Assembly: GCF_025717535.1 (NCBI RefSeq) | Contig: NZ_JAJIRO010000003.1 | Span: forward strand, 62,001-126,000 | Length of the DNA stretch: 64,000 nucleotides | Source: Paucibacter sp. Y2R2-4 | GTDB lineage: Bacteria > Pseudomonadota > Gammaproteobacteria > Burkholderiales > Burkholderiaceae_C | Reading direction: 5' to 3' | Shown: positions 1 to 10,885 of the stretch, in pieces | Position numbering within the stretch: position 1 is the stretch's first letter | Layout of the letters: each line of letters opens with the position of its first letter | Notes under the pieces: model-generated | Databases searched by the model: none | The model's input: only the letters and a program-made list of their open reading frames with translations | What the model was told of the DNA's origin: nothing | Made by a program: the position numbers and the translations under genes

Positions 1-1110
1 GGCATTGAAGAGCTTGATGGCTTGAGCGCCGCGCAGCGATTCCAGGAAATGGCTGTTCTGCTTGGCCTCATGCACCAAGGCTTCTTCCGAGGCCTCGCGC
101 AGCGGCCTGAAGAAGGCCCAGCGCAGCAGGCCATAGCCAGCCACCGCCAGCAGCGCCACCGCGCTCAAACTCGGGCTGTAGACCGCCATCATGGCCAGGG
201 TGATCAGCACCATCAGGCCATCCAACACCGCTTCGGCGAAGCGGGTGGAGAGGGTGCGTTGGATCTGCTGCACGCTGCCAAAGCGCGACCAGATATCGCC
301 CAGATGGCGCTTTTCAAACCAAGCCAGGGGCAGGCGCAGCAAATGGCCGAAAACCTGGGTCAGCCACTGCACATTCAAATTGGCTGAGAGATACAGCACC
401 GCCCAGGAGCGCAAAGCGCCCACCGCCACTTGCAAGCCGACCAAGAGCCCAAAGCCCAGGCCCAGTGTGACCAGCAGGTCGCGGTCGGCGCTGACCAAGA
501 CGCCATCCACCACCCATTGCAGGAAAAAGGGCGAAAGCAGGGCCAGCGTCTCCAGAGCCAGCGCCAGGCCCAAGATCTCCAGCAGCGAGCGTTTCAGGCC
601 GATGATGGGGCCGAACAACTGCCGCCAGCGCAGGCGTGGGGCAGGGGGCTGCGGGTTGAAATTCGCCGCCGGGCGCAGCTCCATCGCTACGCCGGTGAAA
701 TGCGCTGATAGCTCTTTCAGCTTCATGCGCCGGGCGCCATGGGCCGGGTCGTGAATCAAGGCCTGTTCGCCCCGCACCTCGACCAGCACCACAAAATGAT
801 TGAAGTCCCAGTGCAAGATGGCCGGCCATTGCAACTGCGCCAAATGTTCGGGCTCGGCCCGCAAGGCCCGGCTGCTCAGGCCCAAATCGGACGCCATGCG
901 CACCAAGTCCGCCATGGTGGCGCCCTTGAGCGAGAGCGAAAAGCGCGCCCGCAGCTGGGCGAGATCCAGATGCAGCCGGTGGCGATGCGCCACCATCGCC
1001 AAGCAGGCCAGGCCGCATTCGGCCGCCTCGGTCTGCAATAGCAGCGGCGTGCGCGAACGCGGGCCTCGCCAGCCCAGATGCAAGCGTTGAAACAAGCTCA
1101 GTTCAGACAC
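1..1110 (-). CDS. C39-peptidase ABC exporter for double-glycine peptides (partial)
   Basis: Inner-membrane ABC transporter of the CvaB/LagD type, which cuts a double-glycine leader and exports the mature peptide. It reads from a GTG at 1108-1110, overlapping the end of the HlyD gene by 8 bases, and stays open to the left edge (370 codons seen). Residues about 20-135 are a C39 cysteine peptidase: Gln26, catalytic Cys32 in TEAAECGLAC, His105 in DFNHFVVL and Asp121 in HDPA. From about residue 165 the exporter membrane domain follows, up to LESLRGAQAIKLFN at the edge. The nucleotide-binding domain lies outside the window. The peptide gene at 2430-2603 is its obvious substrate candidate. Family assignment is firm; the substrate is inferred. 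Confidence 0.93.
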   Translation of the reverse strand, partial: MSELSLFQRLHLGWRGPRSRTPLLLQTEAAECGLACLAMVAHRHRLHLDLAQLRARFSLSLKGATMADLVRMASDLGLSSRALRAEPEHLAQLQWPAILHWDFNHFVVLVEVRGEQALIHDPAHGARRMKLKELSAHFTGVAMELRPAANFNPQPPAPRLRWRQLFGPIIGLKRSLLEILGLALALETLALLSPFFLQWVVDGVLVSADRDLLVTLGLGFGLLVGLQVAVGALRSWAVLYLSANLNVQWLTQVFGHLLRLPLAWFEKRHLGDIWSRFGSVQQIQRTLSTRFAEAVLDGLMVLITLAMMAVYSPSLSAVALLAVAGYGLLRWAFFRPLREASEEALVHEAKQNSHFLESLRGAQAIKLFNA

Positions 1111-2359
1111 GATGGGCCAGGCTCAAGAGCGGCTCAAAAATCCACTCGATCAGCCGGCGCCGCTCCAGCAGCACATCGGCCTCCAACTGCATGCCGGCCG
1201 ACAGCGGCTGGGCTTCGCCATAGGCTTGGACCGTTTGGGCGTCGAGGCCGACGGTGACACGATACAGCGGTTCGCTCTGCTGGCTCTGGCTGAGCGCGGC
1301 CGGCAGGTGCAAGGTGGCCAGCTCGGCCGGCAGCAAAGGTGTGCGCGAGACCTGCAGCACCCGGCCGTATTGCAGGCCGAATTTTTGGTAGGGAAAGGCC
1401 TGGTAGCGCAGATGCACCGACTGCTGGGGGCGCAAGAAGCCCACCGCGCTAGAGGGCGCATAGAGCTGCGCCTGCATCTCGGTGCGAGCCGGCAAAAGGC
1501 TGGCCAGGGCGGCACCGCTGGCCACGCTTTGGCCGGGTTCGGCCAGCAAGGTGGCCACGATGCCATCGCTGGGCGCGCGCAGCACCAGGCGGCGGCGGTT
1601 CTCGGTTTCCAGGCCGAGGCGGCCCAGCTCGGCCCGGTCACGGGCAATCTCGCCCTGCAGCACCTCGGCTCGCAGCGGCAATTGGCGCGCCTCGCTTTGC
1701 GTGGCCTGCAAGTCGCGCTGCAGCGACTCGCGCTGCCGCTCCAGCGCTTGGCCCTGGGCCTTCAAGGCCAAGAGATCTTCGCGTTTGCTTTGCAGCTGTG
1801 CGGCAGAGATGAAGTTGTCTCGGCTGAGTTGCTCCTGGCGCGCCAAAGTCTCGCTCGCCAGCGCCAGTCTTTCGGCCTGCAGGCTGCTTTCCGCCTTCAG
1901 CAACTGCAGCTCTCGCTCCAGCCCCAGCCTGCGCTGATTCAGCGCTTGCTGCTGAGTGTGCGCTAACTGGCGCTCTTGTTCGGCGGTGTTTTGCAGGCTG
2001 TCTTGGCTGGCCGTCAGATTGCGGGCGATGCCCTCATTGCTCTGGCTGGTGCTGTCCAGGCTCAGCACAAACAAGACATCGCCGGCCTTCACCGACTGGC
2101 CTTCGCTGACCTCGCGCTGCAAGACGGTGGCCGGCTGCACGCTGCTGTTTTGAATGCGCAGCACCCCGCGATCGGGCACGAGGCTGCCGCTGATGCGGGC
2201 CTTGCGGGTGGTCTCTGCCAGCGTCAAAAAGGCGCCAACGCCGATGACGGCCGTGATGGCCAGGGCACTCAGCAGTCGGAGTGACAAAGGGCGCAGCAAT
2301 TGAATGCTGCCCAGCCAAGCTTGTTGCTGGCCAAGGAGGGCTTGAGAACGAAAAAGCAT
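1103..2359 (-). CDS. HlyD-family secretion adaptor for the peptide exporter
   Basis: Periplasmic adaptor (membrane fusion protein) expected to bridge the C39 ABC exporter to an outer-membrane channel. The 418-residue protein has one membrane segment near residues 28-48, then a lipoyl-like half beginning ISGSLVPDRGVLRIQ. A long Gln/Glu/Arg-rich coiled-coil hairpin spans roughly residues 100-260, followed by the second lipoyl half (LRAPSDGIVATLLAEPGQSV) and a beta-barrel region. This is the layout of CvaA-type bacteriocin adaptors. The stop overlaps the exporter start, so the two are translationally coupled. It lies 70 bases after the peptide gene. No TolC gene sits beside it; the one at 18216 belongs to a metal-efflux operon. 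Confidence 0.9.
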   Translation of the reverse strand: MLFRSQALLGQQQAWLGSIQLLRPLSLRLLSALAITAVIGVGAFLTLAETTRKARISGSLVPDRGVLRIQNSSVQPATVLQREVSEGQSVKAGDVLFVLSLDSTSQSNEGIARNLTASQDSLQNTAEQERQLAHTQQQALNQRRLGLERELQLLKAESSLQAERLALASETLARQEQLSRDNFISAAQLQSKREDLLALKAQGQALERQRESLQRDLQATQSEARQLPLRAEVLQGEIARDRAELGRLGLETENRRRLVLRAPSDGIVATLLAEPGQSVASGAALASLLPARTEMQAQLYAPSSAVGFLRPQQSVHLRYQAFPYQKFGLQYGRVLQVSRTPLLPAELATLHLPAALSQSQQSEPLYRVTVGLDAQTVQAYGEAQPLSAGMQLEADVLLERRRLIEWIFEPLLSLAHRV

Positions 2360-2370
2360 GGGGCCGGTCT

Positions 2371-2387
2371 GAGGCCGTGTCAGCCTC
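2371..2387 (-). other. Short hairpin between peptide gene and secretion genes
   Basis: A 5-bp perfect stem (GAGGC / GCCTC) with a 7-base loop lies in the 70-base gap between the peptide gene and the HlyD gene. A hairpin here could protect the upstream mRNA or reduce readthrough so that the peptide is made in excess of its exporter, as in many bacteriocin operons. The stem is short and has no U tract, so it may be chance. Confidence 0.25.
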
Positions 2388-2429
2388 TAGCCTCCCCATG
2401 CAAAAGCGATGACAGCGAATACAACTGAA

Positions 2430-2603
2430 TTACCAAGATCCCTTTGGCGAGGGCTCGGTTGAAATCGGAGCACTAGCCGCACCCCAGGTACCTTTAGGAG
2501 ATCCGCCTCCACTGACCAACTTGAGCAAGCTGGCGTCTAACTCAACTGGACCTGCGTGGTTAGGTTTCTGTTGATCGTTCAGTGTCGATTGATGGTTCTG
2601 CAT
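2430..2603 (-). CDS. Double-glycine leader peptide precursor (bacteriocin- or signal-like)
   Basis: A 57-residue precursor read from ATG 2601-2603; the frame is also open to a GTG at 2637-2639. The leader ends ELDASLLKLVSGG, with Leu at -12, Leu at -7, Val at -4 and Gly at -2 and -1, exactly the rule for C39-peptidase substrates. Cleavage would release a 24-residue peptide beginning GSPKGTWG and ending PSPKGSW. It is rich in Gly, Ser and Pro, has no Cys and has Trp at both repeat units. The near-duplicate SPKGTW/SPKGSW motif at the two ends is unusual. The exporter genes follow directly, and a LuxR gene and a lux-box-like dyad lie upstream. I do not recognise the mature peptide; bacteriocin, autoinducing peptide or other secreted peptide are all possible. 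No modification enzyme is visible nearby. Confidence 0.75.
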   Translation of the reverse strand: MQNHQSTLNDQQKPNHAGPVELDASLLKLVSGGGSPKGTWGAASAPISTEPSPKGSW

Positions 2604-2673
2604 GGCTGATTCCGAGGGTTGGCGTGCGGTGAGGTGCACAAAGGCATTTCAGCAAGCCAGACCCAAACAGGTA

Positions 2674-2691
2674 ACTGTCAACTCTTACAGT
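2674..2691 (-). promoter_or_regulatory. Lux-box-like dyad upstream of the peptide gene
   Basis: ACTGTCAACTCTTACAGT is a perfect 5-bp inverted repeat with an 8-base spacer. It contains CTG-N10-CAG, the core of LuxR-family operators. It lies between luxR and the peptide gene, 71 bases before the peptide ATG. If it acts at the usual position centred near -42, transcription would start near 2640. That would favour the ATG at 2603 over the GTG at 2639. A weak -10 (TGAAAT, four of six) sits about where expected. A match this short can occur by chance. Confidence 0.4.
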
Positions 2692-2716
2692 GTGCAGAAA
2701 AACAGCAGGCAGAACT

Positions 2717-3430
2717 CTAGCGTATCAAGCCCAAGCGCAAGGCCTTCAGAACCGCTTGATGCTTGTTGTTACATCCCAGCTTACGCATGCCGTTGCTGAT
2801 GTGAAGAACAGCGGTTCGCTCAGTGATGCTCATGATGGTGCCGACTTCCCAGGCCGTCTTGCCATCCATGGTCCAACGCAATGCTTCCAACTCTCGGGGG
2901 GTTAGGTGGGGGCGTTCGAGTTGTTGTTCGGGGGGTAGCAAAACGCGCAAGGCCGTATCCATCGCGTGCACTGCGAACAACTGCATGTCTGCCACCATGC
3001 GAGTGAGCTGCACTGGATCGCTTGGCAGATCATCACTTCGATCCATACCTAGCAGGAAGTGGCGACCTTCTGGCAGGTGTAAAGCAAGGCAAATCCCCGT
3101 TCGGTATCCGTATCGAGCCTGGACTTCCCACAGTTCTCCGGCCCCTTGGTCCACATAGGTCTTTTGATTCCATACGATGGGCACGCTTTGCTTTTTGCAG
3201 TGCTGCATGACGGGATCACGCATACCCAGCGCCGGATCATTCCAAGCTTCAGAGAATCCTGGGGGGCAGTTATCCACGCTGATGAACTCAGACCGGCCCA
3301 GGGCGTGGTCTACCACGGTCATGGCATTGAAGGTCTCGAATTCCATAGCCTTGGTGAAGCGTTCAACCTCTTGGAAAAACGCATCCCGGCTACGGGCTTC
3401 AAGCACCGACTGGTATCCCCCCTGCAGCAT
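2717..3430 (-). CDS. LuxR-type regulator with variant autoinducer-binding domain
   Basis: Transcription regulator with an N-terminal autoinducer-binding domain (about 15-165) and a C-terminal GerE/LuxR helix-turn-helix beginning LTPRELEALRW. From ATG 3428-3430 it has 237 residues, normal for the family; the frame is open upstream to a TTG at 3589. Aligned to TraR with a constant offset of two, D70 and W85 are kept (Asp72 in MRDPVM, Trp87 in VPIVW). W57 is Phe59 and Y61 is Trp63 (GFSEAW). Loss of these two aromatics marks LuxR solos such as the OryR/PipR group, where W57 is Met and Y61 is Trp. No luxI gene is present in the window. It lies upstream of the peptide gene on the same strand and probably controls it. 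The ligand is unknown. Confidence 0.9.
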   Translation of the reverse strand: MLQGGYQSVLEARSRDAFFQEVERFTKAMEFETFNAMTVVDHALGRSEFISVDNCPPGFSEAWNDPALGMRDPVMQHCKKQSVPIVWNQKTYVDQGAGELWEVQARYGYRTGICLALHLPEGRHFLLGMDRSDDLPSDPVQLTRMVADMQLFAVHAMDTALRVLLPPEQQLERPHLTPRELEALRWTMDGKTAWEVGTIMSITERTAVLHISNGMRKLGCNNKHQAVLKALRLGLIR

Positions 3431-3604
3431 CACTCCGCTTTCGTCCAAAGGCTGTCGCGTCCAGGCTAGGACGAGCGACTCCACCGTTGCATCCCTGACA
3501 AGGTTTACAGCTAGCAAGCCGAGCCGCTCGTCTGCACACTGAGTGAACTTTAGACGAACGGCCGAAGACTGCTGCTTCCACCCCCTCAACCACTATTTTT
3601 AGAT

Positions 3605-3973
3605 ATGACCCCAGCCTGGATTGTGTACGCTTGGCCTAGAGTTTTGTGCGAGGCGCAACGTGCGCCGAATCTGCAGTTCGCGCATTTGAGTACGCAAGTG
3701 TTGGTGGCAGGCGACGGCCGGCGGCCTTCCCTGGGGCAAACCCTGTGGCAAGGGGCCGAGGGTCAGGCCGTGGCCGGTGTAGCCTGGGATTGGATCAGCC
3801 TGCCGCCCGGCGTGGTGGCCATGGTCGATCCCATGGCCTTGATCACCAATTTGCAGTTCCTCAATGCCGATGGCGAGGTGCTGGCTCCGATGGAGTCGGT
3901 GCTGCAATTGAATGAAATCGTCCACGCTTTGCCTTGGCAGCATGAGGTGCAGCGCGCCCTCGGCCTGCATTGA
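3605..3973 (+). CDS. Conserved hypothetical protein
   Basis: A 122-residue soluble protein starting at ATG 3605, divergent from the LuxR gene and convergent with the sensor kinase. It contains WDWISLPPGVVAMVDPMALI and a C-terminal NEIVHALPW segment. There is no signal peptide or membrane segment, and I recognise no domain. The opposite strand is also open over almost the same interval. The plus strand is preferred because its translation has balanced hydrophobic and charged segments, while the antisense product is rich in His, Gln and Arg like the other antisense frames here. Function unknown. Confidence 0.6.
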   Translation: MTPAWIVYAWPRVLCEAQRAPNLQFAHLSTQVLVAGDGRRPSLGQTLWQGAEGQAVAGVAWDWISLPPGVVAMVDPMALITNLQFLNADGEVLAPMESVLQLNEIVHALPWQHEVQRALGLH

Positions 3974-3996: not shown

Positions 3997-5811
3997 TCAT
4001 AGCCACAGGCCAAAGCTGCTGCCCTGGCCGAGCGTGCTCTTGATCTCTAGCCGTCCGCCCATCAGTTCGAGCAGCTCTTTGACGATGCTGACGCCCAGGC
4101 CGGTGCCCGGGATATGGCCCGAGGTGTCGGCGCGGAAGAAGCGTTCGCCCATGCGCGCCAGATGTTCGGCCGACAGTCCGATGCCCTGATCGCGAATCTC
4201 GATGCCATAACGGCTGCGGCCCTCGTCCGGCCCGCTCGATGCCGCCGCCAAGAGCCGGATGCTCACCGGCTCACCGCCGGGCGAGTACTTGTAAGCATTG
4301 GAGAGGGTGTTGAGCAGAATCTGTTGCATCTTCTGCCGGTCCACCGAGACCGGCATCGGTCCGGGCGCCGGCCCCACTTCGGGCGCTGCACGGCCCTGCG
4401 GCGGTTTGTAGTCGCTCAGCACATGGTGGAGCAACTCGCCCAGATCCAGCAGCTCAAAGTGCAGGTCCGCTGCGCCGCGCGCCTCGATGCGGGCCAGGTC
4501 CAACAACTCGTTCAAGATGTTGATCATCAGCTTGCTCTGCCGATGAATGCGGTTCAGCAAATCCAGGCGTTTGGCCTCGCTGAACTCGCGGTTCAGCAGC
4601 AGCTCGACGAAGCCGAAGATGCTGGCCATGGGCGTGCGCAACTCATGCGCGGCCAGTGAGAGGAACTCGGACTTCATCCGGTCAAGTTCATGCTGACGGG
4701 TCTCGTCCCGCACATAGAGCACCAGGCTGACCGCCGAGGCCGTCGGCTGGCGCCCGCTGATGGCCAGCACGCGAGGCCGGTCGCCGCGCAGGGTCAGGCT
4801 TTGCCCCTCCGGCCCAAAGCTGGCGGCCAGGCCCGAGAACTCATGGGCGTCGAGGGCGCGTTCGCGCAGCTTGGCGTCCAGACCCAGATCGTCCAGGCCC
4901 AGCACCTCGTCTTCGCGCAGATCGGTCAGGCGCAGAAAAGCCTGGTTGCTGAACTCGATCTTGCCGGCTCGGTTGAAGGTCAGCAGCCCATCGGGGCTGT
5001 TGGCAAAGATGGCGCCGAGCTGGTCGTTTTGAGCCGCCAGCTGGCGCACTTGGGCCAGATGGGTGTCGACGCTGTCGTGCAGCAAGATCATGTGTTGCTG
5101 CAGCAGCACCGAGGTGTCGTTCAAGGCCCGGCGCAGTTCCAGAAACTCTTGCGGGCCGCTCAGCTCCAGCTTGGCGTGGCCCAAGTCGTCGGCCAACTCG
5201 GTGGCAAAGCGGCGCGCTTCGTCCAGGCTGGCCATGGGGCGGCGCAAAAAGCTCCGCAGCAGCCAGTGGCACAAAAGCACCGCGATCACGGCCACGAAGA
5301 AGGTGTTGAGCCAGATGCTGTGGCCCAGTTGCCGCAGCGCTGTCAGGTCAAACTCAATGCAGATCCAGGCCAACAGCCGTTCGCCCGCCAGCACCGGTTG
5401 CCAGGCGATCAGCCGCGAGCCATCGGGCGAGGTCGCCATTTGCGGCAACAAGGCGCTGGGCATGTTCTCTTGCGGCTTGAGCACCACCTGGGCGGCTTGC
5501 CCGGCTTCGTGCTGCACCTCGCTGAGGCTCTGGCCTTGAGGACCAAAGATGCCGATGCGACGCACCGGTTCGATGTCCGCAAAGGACAAAGCCAGCGCCT
5601 GCAGTGCCTCCGGGTTGCTGGTGATGATCAGATTGGTGCTGGCTTCGCTGAGGCCACGGGCCAGCATGCGAGCCTCGCTTTCGACCGCTTGGCGGGCGCG
5701 TGACTGTTGCTGCTGCGCGCTGAAGGCACTCAGCACACCGAGGGCTAGCAAGAGCAGCAGGCCGAAGATCAGGCTGAGCTGATGCTTGAAGGTGCGCGGC
5801 CACAGGCGCAT
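3997..5811 (-). CDS. Membrane sensor histidine kinase with PAS domain
   Basis: Two-component sensor kinase of 604 residues. A membrane segment at about 10-29 and a second near 165-185 enclose a periplasmic sensing region. A HAMP-like linker and coiled coil follow, then a PAS domain at about 265-365 (LGAIFANSPDGLLTFN). The kinase core has phospho-acceptor His389 in AAHELRTPM, an N box (NTLSNAYKYSPGG), G1 (DQGIGL), F box (RFFRAD) and G2 (GTGLGVSIV). The protein ends right after the ATPase domain, with no receiver domain. No response regulator gene lies next to it, so it is an orphan whose partner and signal are unknown. Confidence 0.92.
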   Translation of the reverse strand: MRLWPRTFKHQLSLIFGLLLLLALGVLSAFSAQQQQSRARQAVESEARMLARGLSEASTNLIITSNPEALQALALSFADIEPVRRIGIFGPQGQSLSEVQHEAGQAAQVVLKPQENMPSALLPQMATSPDGSRLIAWQPVLAGERLLAWICIEFDLTALRQLGHSIWLNTFFVAVIAVLLCHWLLRSFLRRPMASLDEARRFATELADDLGHAKLELSGPQEFLELRRALNDTSVLLQQHMILLHDSVDTHLAQVRQLAAQNDQLGAIFANSPDGLLTFNRAGKIEFSNQAFLRLTDLREDEVLGLDDLGLDAKLRERALDAHEFSGLAASFGPEGQSLTLRGDRPRVLAISGRQPTASAVSLVLYVRDETRQHELDRMKSEFLSLAAHELRTPMASIFGFVELLLNREFSEAKRLDLLNRIHRQSKLMINILNELLDLARIEARGAADLHFELLDLGELLHHVLSDYKPPQGRAAPEVGPAPGPMPVSVDRQKMQQILLNTLSNAYKYSPGGEPVSIRLLAAASSGPDEGRSRYGIEIRDQGIGLSAEHLARMGERFFRADTSGHIPGTGLGVSIVKELLELMGGRLEIKSTLGQGSSFGLWL

Positions 5812-6121: not shown

Positions 6122-7305
6122 TCAGCGAGACACAGCGCCGCGCATCGAGCGCGCCACAAACAAGAGACAGCCGGCGGTCAGCCCCAAGCCCACCAGCACG
6201 CTGGGCAGCACTTGCATCAAGCCAAGTGGCTCACCTTTCAAGACCAGCATCATCAAAGTGTTCTGGGCCAGACCTGGCATCCACAAATACCAAGGTGCGT
6301 CGCCGCCAGGGTTGAGCATGCTGACCATGGGCGCCATGCCCACCAAGGTGATCACCAGGGCGCTGCCGGCTTGGGCCTCTTTGAAAGTCTTGGAGCGAAT
6401 CGCAAACGCCATCAAGAGCGCGCCCAAGCCCGCCGCCAGCGGCAGCTGCAGCAACAAGAAGGCCACGACCTCTCGCCCGCCGAACTGGAACATGGCTTGC
6501 AAGCTGTCGCTCCTGAGCAGCCACTGCGCCGGGATGAAGCTCAGGCAAGACAGCACCGCCACCAACATGCCCAGCAAGGCCACCGCGCCCCATTTGCCCA
6601 GCACCAGGGCCAGGTGTTGCACCGGGTTCATCAGCAAGGGCTCCAGCGAGCCGCGCTCGCGTTCACCGGCGGTGCTGTCTAGTGCCGCCGTGAGCGCGCC
6701 GTAAAGCACGGCCATGATGATGAACATCGGGATGATGCTGGTGATGCGGGTGGCGCGGGCCTGGGCGCTGGCCAAGTCGCGCTCTTCCACCTGCACCGGC
6801 TGCAGCAGCTCGGTCGATACGCCGCGCAAGGCCAGATTCAGCGAGGCCCGTTCGCGGTTGAAGCCGTTCATCAATCGGTTCAAGCTGCCGACGCCGCTGT
6901 TGGCGCGCTGGTTGGCGCTGTCGCTGACCAGCTCCACGGTGGGCTGCTGGCCGGCTCGCAGCTTGGGCTCGAAGTCTTTGTCCAAGACCAGCACCGGTTC
7001 CAGCAGCTTGTTGTCGCGCAAGCGCTTTTCGTAGTCTGCCGGCGCTGTCTTGATGGTGTAGGTCTGGCGCTGCAGATAGTTCTGCAGCGTTGGCGCATGC
7101 TCGATGCCGGCCACCATGATCTCGCGCTTGTCGGCGCGCTCTTCCAGCGAGCTGATCAGGCCCGACAAGGCCAAGAGCAGCAGCGGCCCCATCAGCACCG
7201 CCGGCACCGTCAAGCGCAGCAGGGTGCGGCGGTCGCGCAAGGCGTCGACCACTTCCTTGCTCAGCACAGTCCAAAAATGCCGCAGCATCGTCGTGTTTGC
7301 TTGGC

Positions 7306-7309
<4 letters not shown>
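6122..7309 (-). CDS. natB: ABC-2 type transporter permease, NatB-like
   Basis: Membrane subunit of a two-gene ABC exporter of the NatAB type (sodium efflux in Bacillus; substrate here unproven). The 395-residue protein has an N-terminal membrane helix at about 32-52 and a large extracytoplasmic domain to about residue 185. A cluster of about five membrane helices follows, with the conserved ABC-2 segment GERERGSLEPLLMNPV between the first two. This long loop after helix 1 is typical of NatB and CcmB-like permeases. The start codon overlaps the stop of the ATPase gene (ATGA), so the pair is translationally coupled. Confidence 0.85.
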
Positions 7310-8115
<806 letters not shown>

Positions 8116-8117
8116 GG

Positions 8118-9656
8118 TTATTGCCCTTGCTTGGCGCTGCTGTTGGCGGCGCCGGTCGAGGCCGCGGGCTGCGGCGGCAGGAAGACGGTGGGGCGCGGGA
8201 TCTTGCTGGCGCAGCTGGCGTCTTGCGGCAGGGCCTGCGCATCGCTCTTGGCGTCGATGAAGCGGAACAAGAGATCACGCATGCAGCCCAGACCCATCAC
8301 CCCGTGGCCGGCCTCGGGCACGACGATGTGTTGCACCCGCTGGGCTTGGGTGGCGCCCAGGGCTTTAGCGACGCGTTCGCCATGCCGAGGCGGAGTCACC
8401 GGATCGGCACCGCCGCTGAGCAGCAGCACCGGCGAAGGGGCCGGCGCCAGCTTGTAGAAGTCGGGGGCAATGGACGCACGTGGCCAGTTCTTGCAGGCCT
8501 GGGTGTAGAACTGCGCCTGGTCTTGGCCAAAGTCCGCGCCAGCGGCGTCTTTGCTGTCAGCCAAACGCGGCATATCTTCGGCGCAGACCACCGAGAAGTG
8601 CATGCCCTGGGCCAGCTTGCCGGCGCGGCCGCCGCCAAAGGCGCTGGACAGTCCGAGCAAGCCTTCAAAGCGGCCTTGGCTGGCGGCCGCAATGGCCGAG
8701 GGCAGGGCGGAGGCCAGCGGTGGAGCATAGAGCGGCAGACGAACCGCGCGCAGCAGCATCTCGCGGCTGAGCGTGAAGCTTTCCGGCAAGCCGGTCAGCG
8801 GATGCTGTACGCTGATTTTGCGCGGCAGGCTTTGCAAGAGACCGGCCCATTGCTGGCGCAGCTGTGGGAACTGCGAGGCGCAAGTGGGCTCTTTTTCGCA
8901 GGCCTTGAAGCTGGCTTCCAGCGCGGCTTGGCCGTCGGTGGAGAAGCTGGCCGGCAAGGCCATATCGGACGGCGCCACGCCGTCGATCACCGTGCGCCGC
9001 ACCTGGGCCGGGAACAGCCGCAGGTATTCCAGCGCGGCCCGCGTGCCGTAGGAGCCGCCGATCAGGTTCCAGGCCGGGGCGCCCAGCGCCACCCGCACGG
9101 CCTCGAAGTCCTGCATCGCGACGGTTGTGGAGAAGTAGCGCAGATCGCCATAGGGCAGTTTGCTCAGGTCTTGGCGGCAGCGCTCCAGGCGCTGGAACTG
9201 GGCGTTCGCGTCCAGCCCTTCGGCCATGGGCAGCTGCTCTTCGTCCGCGCATTGCAGCGGCGCGGACTTGCCGGTGCCGCGCTGGTCGATGAAGACCAGG
9301 TCGCGGCGATTGTTGAGCCGCGCCAGGCGGCTGATCATCGTCGGCGCGATGTTGATGGCGCTCTGGCCGGGCCCGCCGGCCAGCACCAGCACCGGGTCGG
9401 GCTGCTTGTTGCGCGCCATCGCCGGCACCACCACGAAGTGGATGTCGATCTGCGTGCCCTGCGCTTCGGCCGGATTCAAGGGCCGCTTGATGCTGCCGCA
9501 TTGCAGCTCATTGGCCACGCCCTCGATGCGGCAGGGCCGGGTCAACTCCGTGCTGCTGAGCGGGGCGGGCGCTGCGATGGCCGATGCGCCTAGCTGCGCC
9601 CCCGCCAAGGCGATGCCCGCTATGGCACCCAGCCGGGTCCGGTGTCGGTCTGACAT
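8118..9656 (-). CDS. Secreted alpha/beta hydrolase, TAP/prolyl aminopeptidase-like
   Basis: Predicted exported alpha/beta hydrolase related to tripeptidyl aminopeptidases. Start ATG 9654-9656 is chosen because GGAG lies 7 bases upstream and a signal peptide follows (IAGIALAGAQLGASAIAA). The protein has 512 residues. It shows an oxyanion region VLAGGPGQSA, nucleophile Ser in GGSYGTR, acid in LLSGGADPVTPP and His in EAGHGVMG, followed by the TAP-like C-terminal region. Cys residues in the mature part suggest a periplasmic disulfide-bonded enzyme. It heads the natAB operon; the functional link to an exporter is not obvious. The physiological substrate is unknown. Confidence 0.88.
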   Translation of the reverse strand: MSDRHRTRLGAIAGIALAGAQLGASAIAAPAPLSSTELTRPCRIEGVANELQCGSIKRPLNPAEAQGTQIDIHFVVVPAMARNKQPDPVLVLAGGPGQSAINIAPTMISRLARLNNRRDLVFIDQRGTGKSAPLQCADEEQLPMAEGLDANAQFQRLERCRQDLSKLPYGDLRYFSTTVAMQDFEAVRVALGAPAWNLIGGSYGTRAALEYLRLFPAQVRRTVIDGVAPSDMALPASFSTDGQAALEASFKACEKEPTCASQFPQLRQQWAGLLQSLPRKISVQHPLTGLPESFTLSREMLLRAVRLPLYAPPLASALPSAIAAASQGRFEGLLGLSSAFGGGRAGKLAQGMHFSVVCAEDMPRLADSKDAAGADFGQDQAQFYTQACKNWPRASIAPDFYKLAPAPSPVLLLSGGADPVTPPRHGERVAKALGATQAQRVQHIVVPEAGHGVMGLGCMRDLLFRFIDAKSDAQALPQDASCASKIPRPTVFLPPQPAASTGAANSSAKQGQ

Positions 9657-9806
9657 TGCAAGCTCCAGTCTTGTTGTTATGGACTGGGGCGGATTATGGG
9701 CAGCGCCATGCCACCTTTTGGAGAAAAAGCGGCGAGTGGCGGATTGCGCGGCTGAATGGTTGCTGGTGCAGCGTCGTTGGCTGCCAGTGCGCCCTTGCAA
9801 GCTCAG

Positions 9807-10265
9807 TCAGTCGGTGAAGCCTCGATCTCGGGCGAGCTCAGGGTTGGCGAACTGGGCCATGGCGGTTTTCATGAGGCGAAAGCCCAGGTGTTCATAAAAC
9901 GGCTCCTTGCCCGGGGCCGCATACAGCATCGCATGGGCGCCACCCGCGCGAGTTTGCAGGTCTTGCATGATGGCGCGGCCCAAGCCAAGACCTTGGACCT
10001 CGGGCGCCAGCGCCACGTCAAAGATCACCGTCCATGTCAGCCGGTCGCTCAAGGCCCGCCCAGCGCCGACGATCTGGCCCTCGCGATAGGCAAAGCAAGA
10101 CACGCTGCTGTTGCGAAAGCTCTGCTCCAAGAGCTTGGGGTCGCGGGTGCCCAGCGGCGCACGCTCAAACACATCGACCAGCGCGAGCCAATCCACCTCG
10201 TCCAGCTCATGCTTGAGCAAGACCTGACCCTCGCTAGGCGAGGGCTTGTCTGCCTCGGCCTTCAT
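9807..10265 (-). CDS. GNAT family N-acetyltransferase
   Basis: Small acetyl-CoA-dependent acyltransferase of 152 residues, read from ATG 10263-10265, which overlaps the upstream gene stop as ATGA. The acetyl-CoA binding motif is VALAPEVQGLGLGRAIMQDL, followed by AAPGKEPFYEHLGF, the usual end of the GNAT fold. It is co-transcribed with the second acetyltransferase at 10262. The acceptor substrate cannot be told from sequence. The frame runs further upstream, but that would place the start inside the neighbouring gene. Confidence 0.88.
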   Translation of the reverse strand: MKAEADKPSPSEGQVLLKHELDEVDWLALVDVFERAPLGTRDPKLLEQSFRNSSVSCFAYREGQIVGAGRALSDRLTWTVIFDVALAPEVQGLGLGRAIMQDLQTRAGGAHAMLYAAPGKEPFYEHLGFRLMKTAMAQFANPELARDRGFTD

Positions 10266-10885
10266 GCGCTTTGGCGCGCAGCCAGTTGCTGCAAGCGCTG
10301 TTTCACCTCGGGCCACTCGCTGTCGATGATGGCGAAGTAGACGGTGTCGCGCACCCGGCCAGTGTCGGTCTGCACATGGCGGCGGAAGATGCCTTCTTGC
10401 TGCGCGCCGATGCGGGCGATGGCGGCCCGCGATTTCTCGTTCAGAAAGTCGGTCTTCAACTCAACCCGGTGTGCCCCCAGCGTCTCAAAAGCATGAGTCA
10501 GCAAGAGCGTCTTGGCCTCGGTGTTGACGCAGCTGCGCTGCCAGGCTTTGGCGACCCAAGTCCAGCCGATTTCCAGCCGGCGGTCACGCAGCGAGATATT
10601 GCCGAAGCGGGTGCAGCCGATGATGGGGCCGTCTTTCTGATCCGGCCCCGCCAACACCAGGGCAAAAGGCAGGCTGCTGCCGCTCGCTTGCTCGGCCAGC
10701 GCTTGTTCCACATAAGCCCGCATATCGGCGGCACTGCGCACTTGATTCGGCACCCAGCGCCACAAGTCTGGGTCCAGGCCGACTTCGGTCAAACCCGGCA
10801 AATGCTCGAGTGATAGAGGTACCAGGCGCAGATGTGGGCCTTGAAGCGTGAGTGGGGTCACTTGCATGGGGATGATGGGCGTCAT
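10262..10885 (-). CDS. GNAT N-acetyltransferase, RimJ/RimL-like
   Basis: Acetyltransferase of the RimJ/RimL group (207 residues from ATG 10883-10885; ATG 10865-10867 is also possible). It begins LTLQGPHLRLVPLSLEHL and has the family segment LEIGWTWVAKAWQRSCVNTE. The later segment is GAHRVELKTDFLNEKSRAAI, with a long helix before the acetyl-CoA site. It is translationally coupled to the next acetyltransferase. Likely substrates are protein N-termini or small amines; which one is not visible. The start is uncertain because no clear ribosome-binding site is present. Confidence 0.86.
   Translation of the reverse strand: MTPIIPMQVTPLTLQGPHLRLVPLSLEHLPGLTEVGLDPDLWRWVPNQVRSAADMRAYVEQALAEQASGSSLPFALVLAGPDQKDGPIIGCTRFGNISLRDRRLEIGWTWVAKAWQRSCVNTEAKTLLLTHAFETLGAHRVELKTDFLNEKSRAAIARIGAQQEGIFRRHVQTDTGRVRDTVYFAIIDSEWPEVKQRLQQLAARQSA

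Follow-up and report, generated by a model that had tools for sequence, protein, structure and literature searches.

This study concerns a cluster of genes at the start of a 64,000 nucleotide stretch of DNA (the window) from Paucibacter sp. Y2R2-4 (NCBI RefSeq assembly GCF_025717535.1, contig NZ_JAJIRO010000003.1, positions 62,001 to 126,000 of the forward strand; C3:62001-126000 of the 5.13 Mb genome, which is in 9 contigs). Based on comparisons of its sequence with that of related loci, we consider it likely that the LuxR-type protein encoded in this cluster is paired with a gene-encoded hexapeptide, xPxxxW, that replaces the LuxI-made N-acyl-homoserine lactone (AHL), so that the two would constitute a self-contained signaling circuit. 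We also favor, with a little less assurance, the wider view that a LuxR clade within one Burkholderiales family swapped AHL for a hexapeptide in the same pocket; a minigene, sometimes only 10 codons long, would have replaced the synthase gene, receptor and peptide would have coevolved in specificity groups, and the module made up of a C39 exporter and its HlyD partner would have been gained or lost.

The proposed receptor is a 237 amino acid protein encoded on the minus strand at 2717..3430, with an autoinducer-binding domain (Pfam Autoind_bind, E 2.9e-22) and a LuxR helix-turn-helix domain (GerE, E 1.3e-14), both above the Pfam cut-offs, and it is the sole PF03472 protein of its genome. On the same strand, at 2430..2603, lies the gene for a 57 amino acid precursor with a leader that agrees with the double-glycine rule and two copies of the hexapeptide, SPKGTW at residues 35-40 (2484..2501, minus strand; codons TCT CCT AAA GGT ACC TGG) and the C-terminal SPKGSW at residues 52-57 (2433..2450, minus strand). 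Between these two copies, four codons differ synonymously and one changes the amino acid. Next come the genes for a 418 amino acid HlyD-family periplasmic adaptor (1103..2359, minus strand; Pfam HlyD_3, E 5.8e-14; its match to NCBIfam TIGR01843, at E 2.1e-34, is nevertheless below the cut-off of that model) and for the N-terminal part of a C39 peptidase ABC exporter (1..1110, minus strand; Pfam Peptidase_C39, E 2.4e-35, and ABC_membrane, E 1e-31). The complete exporter frame (L003:8981-11110) comprises 709 amino acids, with the remainder located beyond the window at C3:60981-62000, and Cys32, His105, and Asp121 of its peptidase triad are all intact. These four minus-strand genes, the triad and the double-glycine leader had been described in a first-pass annotation of the window, and coordinates, Pfam matches and sequence bear them out. 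The list of four genes was incomplete, as it overlooked an RsaM-like (DUF4902) gene encoding 122 amino acids, divergent from luxR (3605..3973, plus strand), as well as the two near-identical hexapeptides and two lux-box dyads.

The conserved product predicted from the precursors is the hexapeptide xPxxxW, and not the 24-residue peptide that the first-pass annotation had put forward as the functional unit; the 24-mer was rejected in that role, since the hexapeptide alone repeats and persists. The precursors are highly divergent, but xPxxxW either ends them or directly follows the GG, with positions 1 and 3-5 of the hexapeptide being variable. Each precursor has 1 to 7 copies, the multi-copy forms including L089 (five GPNGGW), L095 (four SPKGTW), and L131 (seven GPRGTW), and in several loci (e.g., L024, L036, L038, L039, and L042) the part after the GG is merely 7-9 residues long, like TDLPNKTW or ALPKFAW. 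Amongst precursors with two copies, which were chosen by eye and from which L027 was omitted because of a doubtful second copy, 15 of the 17 six-residue pairs are identical, compared with 1.1 expected by shuffling (maximum of 7 in 20,000 shuffles). At the DNA level, the copies of 19 precursors show synonymous differences at 39 of 96 degenerate codons. The copies are thus mostly identical in peptide but different in codons, which argues that it is the peptide, and not the DNA, that is being kept.

The four genes, together with the RsaM-like gene as a fifth, are conserved as a unit across dozens of Burkholderiales. A pattern scan of a species-genome collection with the LuxR protein gave 41 loci (L001-L004, from the window's own genome, were left out of the counts). 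All 41 have, just downstream of luxR, a homologous precursor frame whose leader is of the GG or GA type; it has an ATG start in 40 of them, the one without being L010. Matches to HlyD and the C39 exporter follow in 37/41 loci, so that the arrangement exceeds what chance would give. The RsaM-like gene is present in 39/41. A second sample was taken from 150 genomes of the family, 33 of which have a close LuxR (E 1e-100 or better), providing 32 loci besides that of the window. In these, a motif-bearing open reading frame (ORF) was found in 32/32 (the version in L099 being LPRVGGW), the RsaM-like gene in 31/32, and HlyD plus exporter nearby in 26/32. Seven of the 32 (L076, L082, L083, L086, L088, L092, and L093) were taken to be the same records as L025, L039, L009, L035, L041, L043, and L042, respectively, and were left out from the motif-ORF counts, trees and covariation analyses described below. 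The earlier proposal that the genes act as one unit, for which a lack of conserved linkage in relatives had been named beforehand as the refuting observation, therefore held up, with the gene order conserved in the first scan (41 loci) and the linkage found in both samples. Outside the family, no close LuxR orthologue was found among 300 genomes of the order; three LuxR matches were obtained at E 1e-60, two from within the family and one distant match in f23.

The association of the hexapeptide with luxR extends to loci that lack the export genes. In one genus (g12), a close LuxR is encoded in 15 of 21 genomes, and none of the 15 loci has an HlyD/C39 exporter beside luxR or a visible double-glycine leader. 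They nevertheless retain a motif minigene of 10-62 codons behind a lux box, the core of which has ≤3 mismatches in 15/15 loci. The minigene products include MQVLLPRNAW, MQAVKTVSTRPVQLPRAGW, and MTAIARRIDTAPQLPKQGW; exceptions are L136, which has no ATG start, L137, which ends in LPRVGGG, and L132, which repeats TPRGGSW. No C39 domain match was found anywhere in 10 of the 15 genomes, an absence that is weaker for four of the ten, because they are less than 90% complete. Conversely, where a GG leader occurs without an adjacent exporter, all six genomes searched (G119, G028, G043, G150, G151, and G152) have a C39 domain elsewhere, as does G090, in which the leader reads VVGS. Leader and exporter thus tend to be kept or lost together, while the hexapeptide remains alongside luxR and the lux box, as expected if the partner of the hexapeptide is LuxR. 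Since g12 keeps the LuxR-peptide pair and the lux box without an adjacent exporter or leader, export has the appearance of a module that can be dispensed with, and the pair that of the core of the system.

More distant relatives have a similar arrangement. In eight loci, the LuxR is 40-48% identical, it is divergent from an RsaM-like gene, and a short ORF follows luxR. In seven of the eight, this ORF is leaderless, encodes 9-23 amino acids and has a related motif ending (LGLPRNGG, FPRTGW, FPRVGF, NIPRVGGW, and others); that in L114 ends in FPITGN. ORFs ending in a strict or a lax form of the motif were counted in the 450 bases downstream of luxR, with antisense and shuffled controls. Close loci scored 55 (strict) and 57 (lax) of 64 (shuffled means of 0.9 and 1.6), g12 loci 12 and 14 of 15 (0.2 and 0.6), and distant loci 2 and 7 of 8 (0.1 and 0.1), with antisense counts of 0 throughout; the 7/8 is descriptive only, as the lax motif was framed after the distant loci had been seen. 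RsaM control loci, of which 21 of 25 were counted (L148, L154, L164, and L165 had no LuxR match), scored 0 and 1 of 21 (shuffled 0.4 and 0.6). Nineteen of these 21 have a LuxI-type ORF confirmed by Pfam, and PF00765 was matched by all 20 ORFs submitted, one of them from L141. In a quick tree, for which long-branch warnings were issued, a single branch (SH-aLRT 99) separates the 88 close, g12, and distant LuxRs from 22 control rows, which count one locus (L142/L168) twice and exclude the short L156.

The peptide gene of the window is preceded by lux box A (CACTGTAAGAGTTGACAGTT; 2673..2692, minus strand), a 20-base element resembling ACCTGTAAGAGYTGACAGTT with a 16-base core that is conserved across loci. 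The core is found with ≤2 mismatches in 41/42 loci, and in 30/32 loci of the second sample (7 of the 32 being repeat records), and the copy in the window is the sole exact one in its genome. A second, lux-box-like dyad, B (AGCTGTAAACCTTGTCAGGG; 3493..3512, minus strand), with the form CTG-N10-CAG, lies between luxR and the rsaM-like gene, and, of the 20 loci in which the luxR start was placed by script, 19 have such a dyad upstream of this gene. The pattern common to A and B has three exact matches in the genome, two of them at this locus; the third (L059) sits within a coding region and was judged to be due to chance. No wider regulon can be claimed, as the A core at ≤3 mismatches gave 16 genome matches, compared to 12 for a reversed control, and the common pattern at one mismatch gave 27, fewer than its control (43). 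The idea in the first-pass annotation that LuxR controls the peptide gene is upheld to the extent that the gene lies behind a lux box, but the evidence points to LuxR being a peptide receptor rather than simply a regulator. In two distant loci, L108 and L113, near-perfect 20-base palindromes (AGCTACAAGGGGTTGTAGCT and ACCTAGCAGACTTGCTAGGT) that are unlike box A are located downstream of luxR, and these putative sites suggest other binding specificities in the distant clade.

No match to the LuxI family (PF00765) was found in the Paucibacter genome, and 29 of the 33 genomes with a close LuxR likewise lack LuxI at E 0.001; the same model gave E values below 1e-20 in 9 of the 150 family genomes. 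The window protein is, by definition, a LuxR solo, i.e., a LuxR-type receptor without a cognate LuxI. It has F, W, D, P, W, and G at the positions of the AHL-binding signature, which we take to be W57, Y61, D70, P71, W85, and G113 (TraR numbering), and so has only part of that signature. W57 and Y61 are both present in 22/22 RsaM control LuxRs. In the 88 rows, the W57 site is occupied by Y or F in 80 and remains W in 5, and the Y61 site by F (30), Y (17), M (12), S (7), I (6), or other residues, whilst W85 is replaced by Y in 7/8 distant rows. The AHL-contact residue Asp70 is replaced by Cys (LuxR position 72) in two Roseateles LuxRs, from L030 and L041.

Variation in the peptide is tracked by variation in the presumptive ligand pocket. 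For this analysis, we assembled 80 hexapeptides, 63 by the pattern xPxxxW and 17 set by hand from the precursors, such that P2 (in all) and W6 (in the 63) are fixed by the way in which the set was built; the result is unchanged without the seven hexapeptides that lack W at position 6. The LuxR columns that share most mutual information with the peptide are C114, G69, L100, W63, F59, L68, and L126, and five of these seven align with the LasR contacts T115, F101, Y64, W60, and A127. Positions of the AHL pocket are more informative on the peptide than is the rest of the domain (Mann-Whitney p 4.7e-5; 6.7e-5 when entropy-corrected). In partial Mantel tests, the correlation of peptide with pocket, given the non-pocket positions, is 0.222, a value reached in 0/500 label permutations and by 1/500 random position sets in one run and 0/500 in another; the reverse partial is 0.080 (69/1000). 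With 18 LasR pocket residues taken from a publication, the partial is 0.236 (0/1000 as high), and with one row per 85% identity cluster (N 64) it is 0.201 (1/500). The peptide also tracks the ligand-binding domain when the exporter (0.178, 0/1000) or HlyD (0.156, 1/1000) is controlled for. Finally, in close pairs of receptors, the ratio of pocket to non-pocket differences is 0.46, 0.60, 0.80, 0.85, and 1.00 at 0-4 peptide differences (n = 9, 50, 84, 51, and 29), noting that the pairs share sequences and are not independent. The predicted binding of the hexapeptide in the pocket is supported both by this covariation and by the altered pocket residues.

Several observations weigh against the LuxR-hexapeptide pairing. 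The covariation is not significant with one row per 75% identity cluster (N 35; partial 0.063, with 93/500 random sets and 107/500 permutations as high), and a position set shifted by -2 still scores 0.164. In addition, the first list of LasR pocket residues was drawn up after an initial look at the covarying columns, a concern that the repeat with the 18 published LasR residues answers only in part. A hexapeptide would be large as a ligand for such a pocket, and D70, P71, W85, and G113 are retained in nearly all close rows, as expected of an AHL receptor. Strong LuxI matches are found in 3 of the 33 genomes with a close LuxR (G013, G028, and G127), and a partial match in G103. Within the loci, L024 (4 mismatches), L095 (5), and L105 (6) have a poor box A core or none, and the core was not recovered from any of the eight distant loci (5-8 mismatches); the C-terminal hexapeptide copy is lost in L037, L041, and L043; and the Trp is lost in the precursors of L016, L017, L019, and L027. 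Furthermore, the second-nearest LuxR, from G282 (L142/L168, in f23), which is also the control nearest to the 88-LuxR side of the quick tree, is without a motif peptide, and no ORF with a LuxI motif occurs in the stretch fetched for it. The four loci without the Trp make up a Rubrivivax-like group, in which the repeat unit is LPRVS, LPRIGGL, or LPRVGG.

If LuxR is indeed a receptor for the hexapeptide, the system might function as follows. Peptide-bound LuxR would activate the peptide operon at lux box A, and the C39 exporter, going by its family, would cut the precursor after the double glycine and, together with HlyD and an outer-membrane channel of the host, secrete a peptide containing one to several hexapeptides. 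The secreted peptide would act as a pheromone in the lineage of the window. Further trimming would release the hexapeptide, which would probably re-enter through an oligopeptide permease and bind the pocket that holds AHL in other LuxRs, and the RsaM-like protein would damp the circuit, as RsaM does beside luxI/luxR. An alternative that we regard as unlikely is that the peptide, whilst being the LuxR ligand, acts mainly inside the producer as a feedback or timing element, and that the exporter removes it rather than broadcasts it. This proposal shares its core with the scheme just described, and the likelihoods of the two overlap. It would explain why the leaderless g12 loci without an adjacent exporter, in genomes of which 10/15 are C39-free, keep minigene and lux box, and why seven of eight distant loci have leaderless motif ORFs of 9-23 amino acids. 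However, a dedicated exporter next to the peptide gene is the commonest arrangement (37/41 and 26/32), the six genomes with a GG leader but no adjacent exporter have a C39 protein elsewhere as a putative handler of the peptide, and the products of the short ORFs could exit via another exporter.

We give still less credence to the possibility that LuxR is an eavesdropping AHL receptor that switches on a secreted peptide effector, in which case the peptide would be the output of the system and not its ligand. The retention of D70, P71, W85, and G113, an AlphaFold model that is nearest in fold to the AHL receptors QscR, SdiA, and RhlR, a genome without LuxI, like those of other solos, and the lux box upstream of the peptide gene would all be in keeping with this view. 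It does not readily account for the replacement in most of these LuxRs of W57 and Y61, which are fixed in all 22 control rows, for the covariation of pocket positions with the peptide (lost at 75% clusters), or for the persistence of the minigene by luxR in exporter-less g12 loci, where 10/15 genomes have no C39 match.

It is very unlikely, in our opinion, that the peptide targets the RsaM-like protein, which then controls LuxR. The RsaM-like gene is admittedly present in nearly all loci of the first scan (39/41), but the peptide tracks the LuxR ligand-binding domain when RsaM is controlled for (0.130, 6/1000 permutations), and hardly tracks RsaM distance when the ligand-binding domain is (0.042, 144/1000), and RsaM loci with luxI have no peptide. 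Least probable of all is that LuxR controls a small bacteriocin (microcin) system. Microcins are usually exported by just such a set of double-glycine leader, C39 exporter, and HlyD, but some loci have only 7-9 residues after the GG, copies are held identical within precursors, leaderless minigenes persist, and the precursor has no Pfam or NCBIfam family match in a search that took in no bacteriocin immunity genes. Of the two roles offered in the first-pass annotation, bacteriocin or peptide signal, the latter is the likelier one.

Assignment of the fifth gene is based on profile and structural comparisons. A profile of 24 relatives of the RsaM-like protein, searched against all PDB sequences with E up to 10, gave a single match, 4o2h (BCAM1869; E 0.0021), which is the RsaM homologue of Burkholderia cenocepacia. 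The AlphaFold model of the protein (mean pLDDT 76) likewise has the two chains of 4o2h at Foldseek ranks 1 and 2 (best E 1.8e-3, with no match reaching 1e-3; TM 0.66), consistent with an RsaM fold. On its own, the protein scores below the Pfam DUF4902 cut-off (18.6 vs. 25 bits), and 21 of the 24 relatives match the DUF4902 model at E 0.1 or better (best 1.2e-5).

A PAS histidine kinase gene (3997-5811, minus strand) adjoins the rsaM-like gene, but it is not part of the conserved unit, because it was matched in just 4/41 loci (L005, L030, L032, and L035). The gene mnmG (gidA) is located at L003:5083-7206 and lies inside the fetched stretch of 27/41 loci, an indication that the site is a stable part of the chromosome and not a mobile element; no plasmid DNA resembling 2400-3600 of the window was found. 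The Paucibacter genome has a second C39 domain at G000:C3:747034-747441, in a 272 amino acid frame. Lastly, tandem arrays of four and five LuxR paralogues lie beside one peptide gene in L093 (reversed, 6303-9360) and L102 (reversed, 6228-10465), respectively, and no additional motif peptide was found among these paralogues.

In textbooks, LuxR receptors sense diffusible, lipid-like signals, and the paradigm for peptide pheromones comes from Gram-positive bacteria, in which, as in ComRS and Rgg-SHP, a very short gene beside a cytosolic receptor-regulator encodes a short linear peptide signal. The locus described here resembles those systems in having a very short gene next to a receptor-regulator and a predicted short linear peptide. 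It differs from them in being Gram-negative, in having a LuxR-type receptor and, in the version found in the window, a double-glycine leader and C39 exporter; above the cut-offs, the regulator has only LuxR-type Pfam domains, and no RRNPP-type repeat. Short peptides with cytosolic receptors are known from the Gram-positive RRNPP systems (PMC13220807). Compared to LuxI/LuxR AHL systems with RsaM, the AHL-binding and GerE domains, lux boxes, and RsaM-like neighbor are shared, and the differences are that no luxI was found, a tiny peptide gene lies beside luxR, and W57 and Y61 are changed. A precedent for a LuxR homologue that answers to a peptide is PipR of Pseudomonas GM79, one of the OryR/PipR-type solos that are unresponsive to AHLs; PipR is described as answering to Ser-His-Ser and protein hydrolysates and as needing an ABC peptide importer (PMC4981722). 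The PipR signal is exogenous (plant or medium) and the neighbors of its gene encode peptidases and an importer, whereas here a peptide gene and an exporter adjoin luxR; neither a proline iminopeptidase nor a peptide importer, the OryR/PipR trait, was found among the six window proteins scanned. Divergent rsaM/luxR-solo pairs ("type 6") have been reported from Pelomonas, Kinneretia, and others in a 2023 paper on RsaM (PMC10710839), the main text of which does not contain the words peptide, transporter, or export. In the open-access literature, we found no description of a ribosomal peptide that is cognate to a LuxR; this search did not extend to preprints or to most subscription journals, and a prior report is possible. 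The component families are all known, and it is the predicted LuxR-peptide pairing that is new.

On a cautious view, the locus represents a variant of LuxR signaling. If the proposed pairing is true, the LuxR fold would here form the basis of a peptide pheromone system, and of a new mode of Gram-negative communication, as a LuxR with its own ribosomal peptide would unite a receptor for lipid signals with a peptide pheromone of the Gram-positive style. With both the signal and its receptor being encoded and variable, the locus would also provide a natural system for studying receptor-signal coevolution. Furthermore, the pairing would supply ligands for a set of orphan LuxR solos, including the published divergent rsaM/luxR-solo pairs, and the question of what LuxR solos sense would become testable with cheap synthetic hexapeptides read from the genome.

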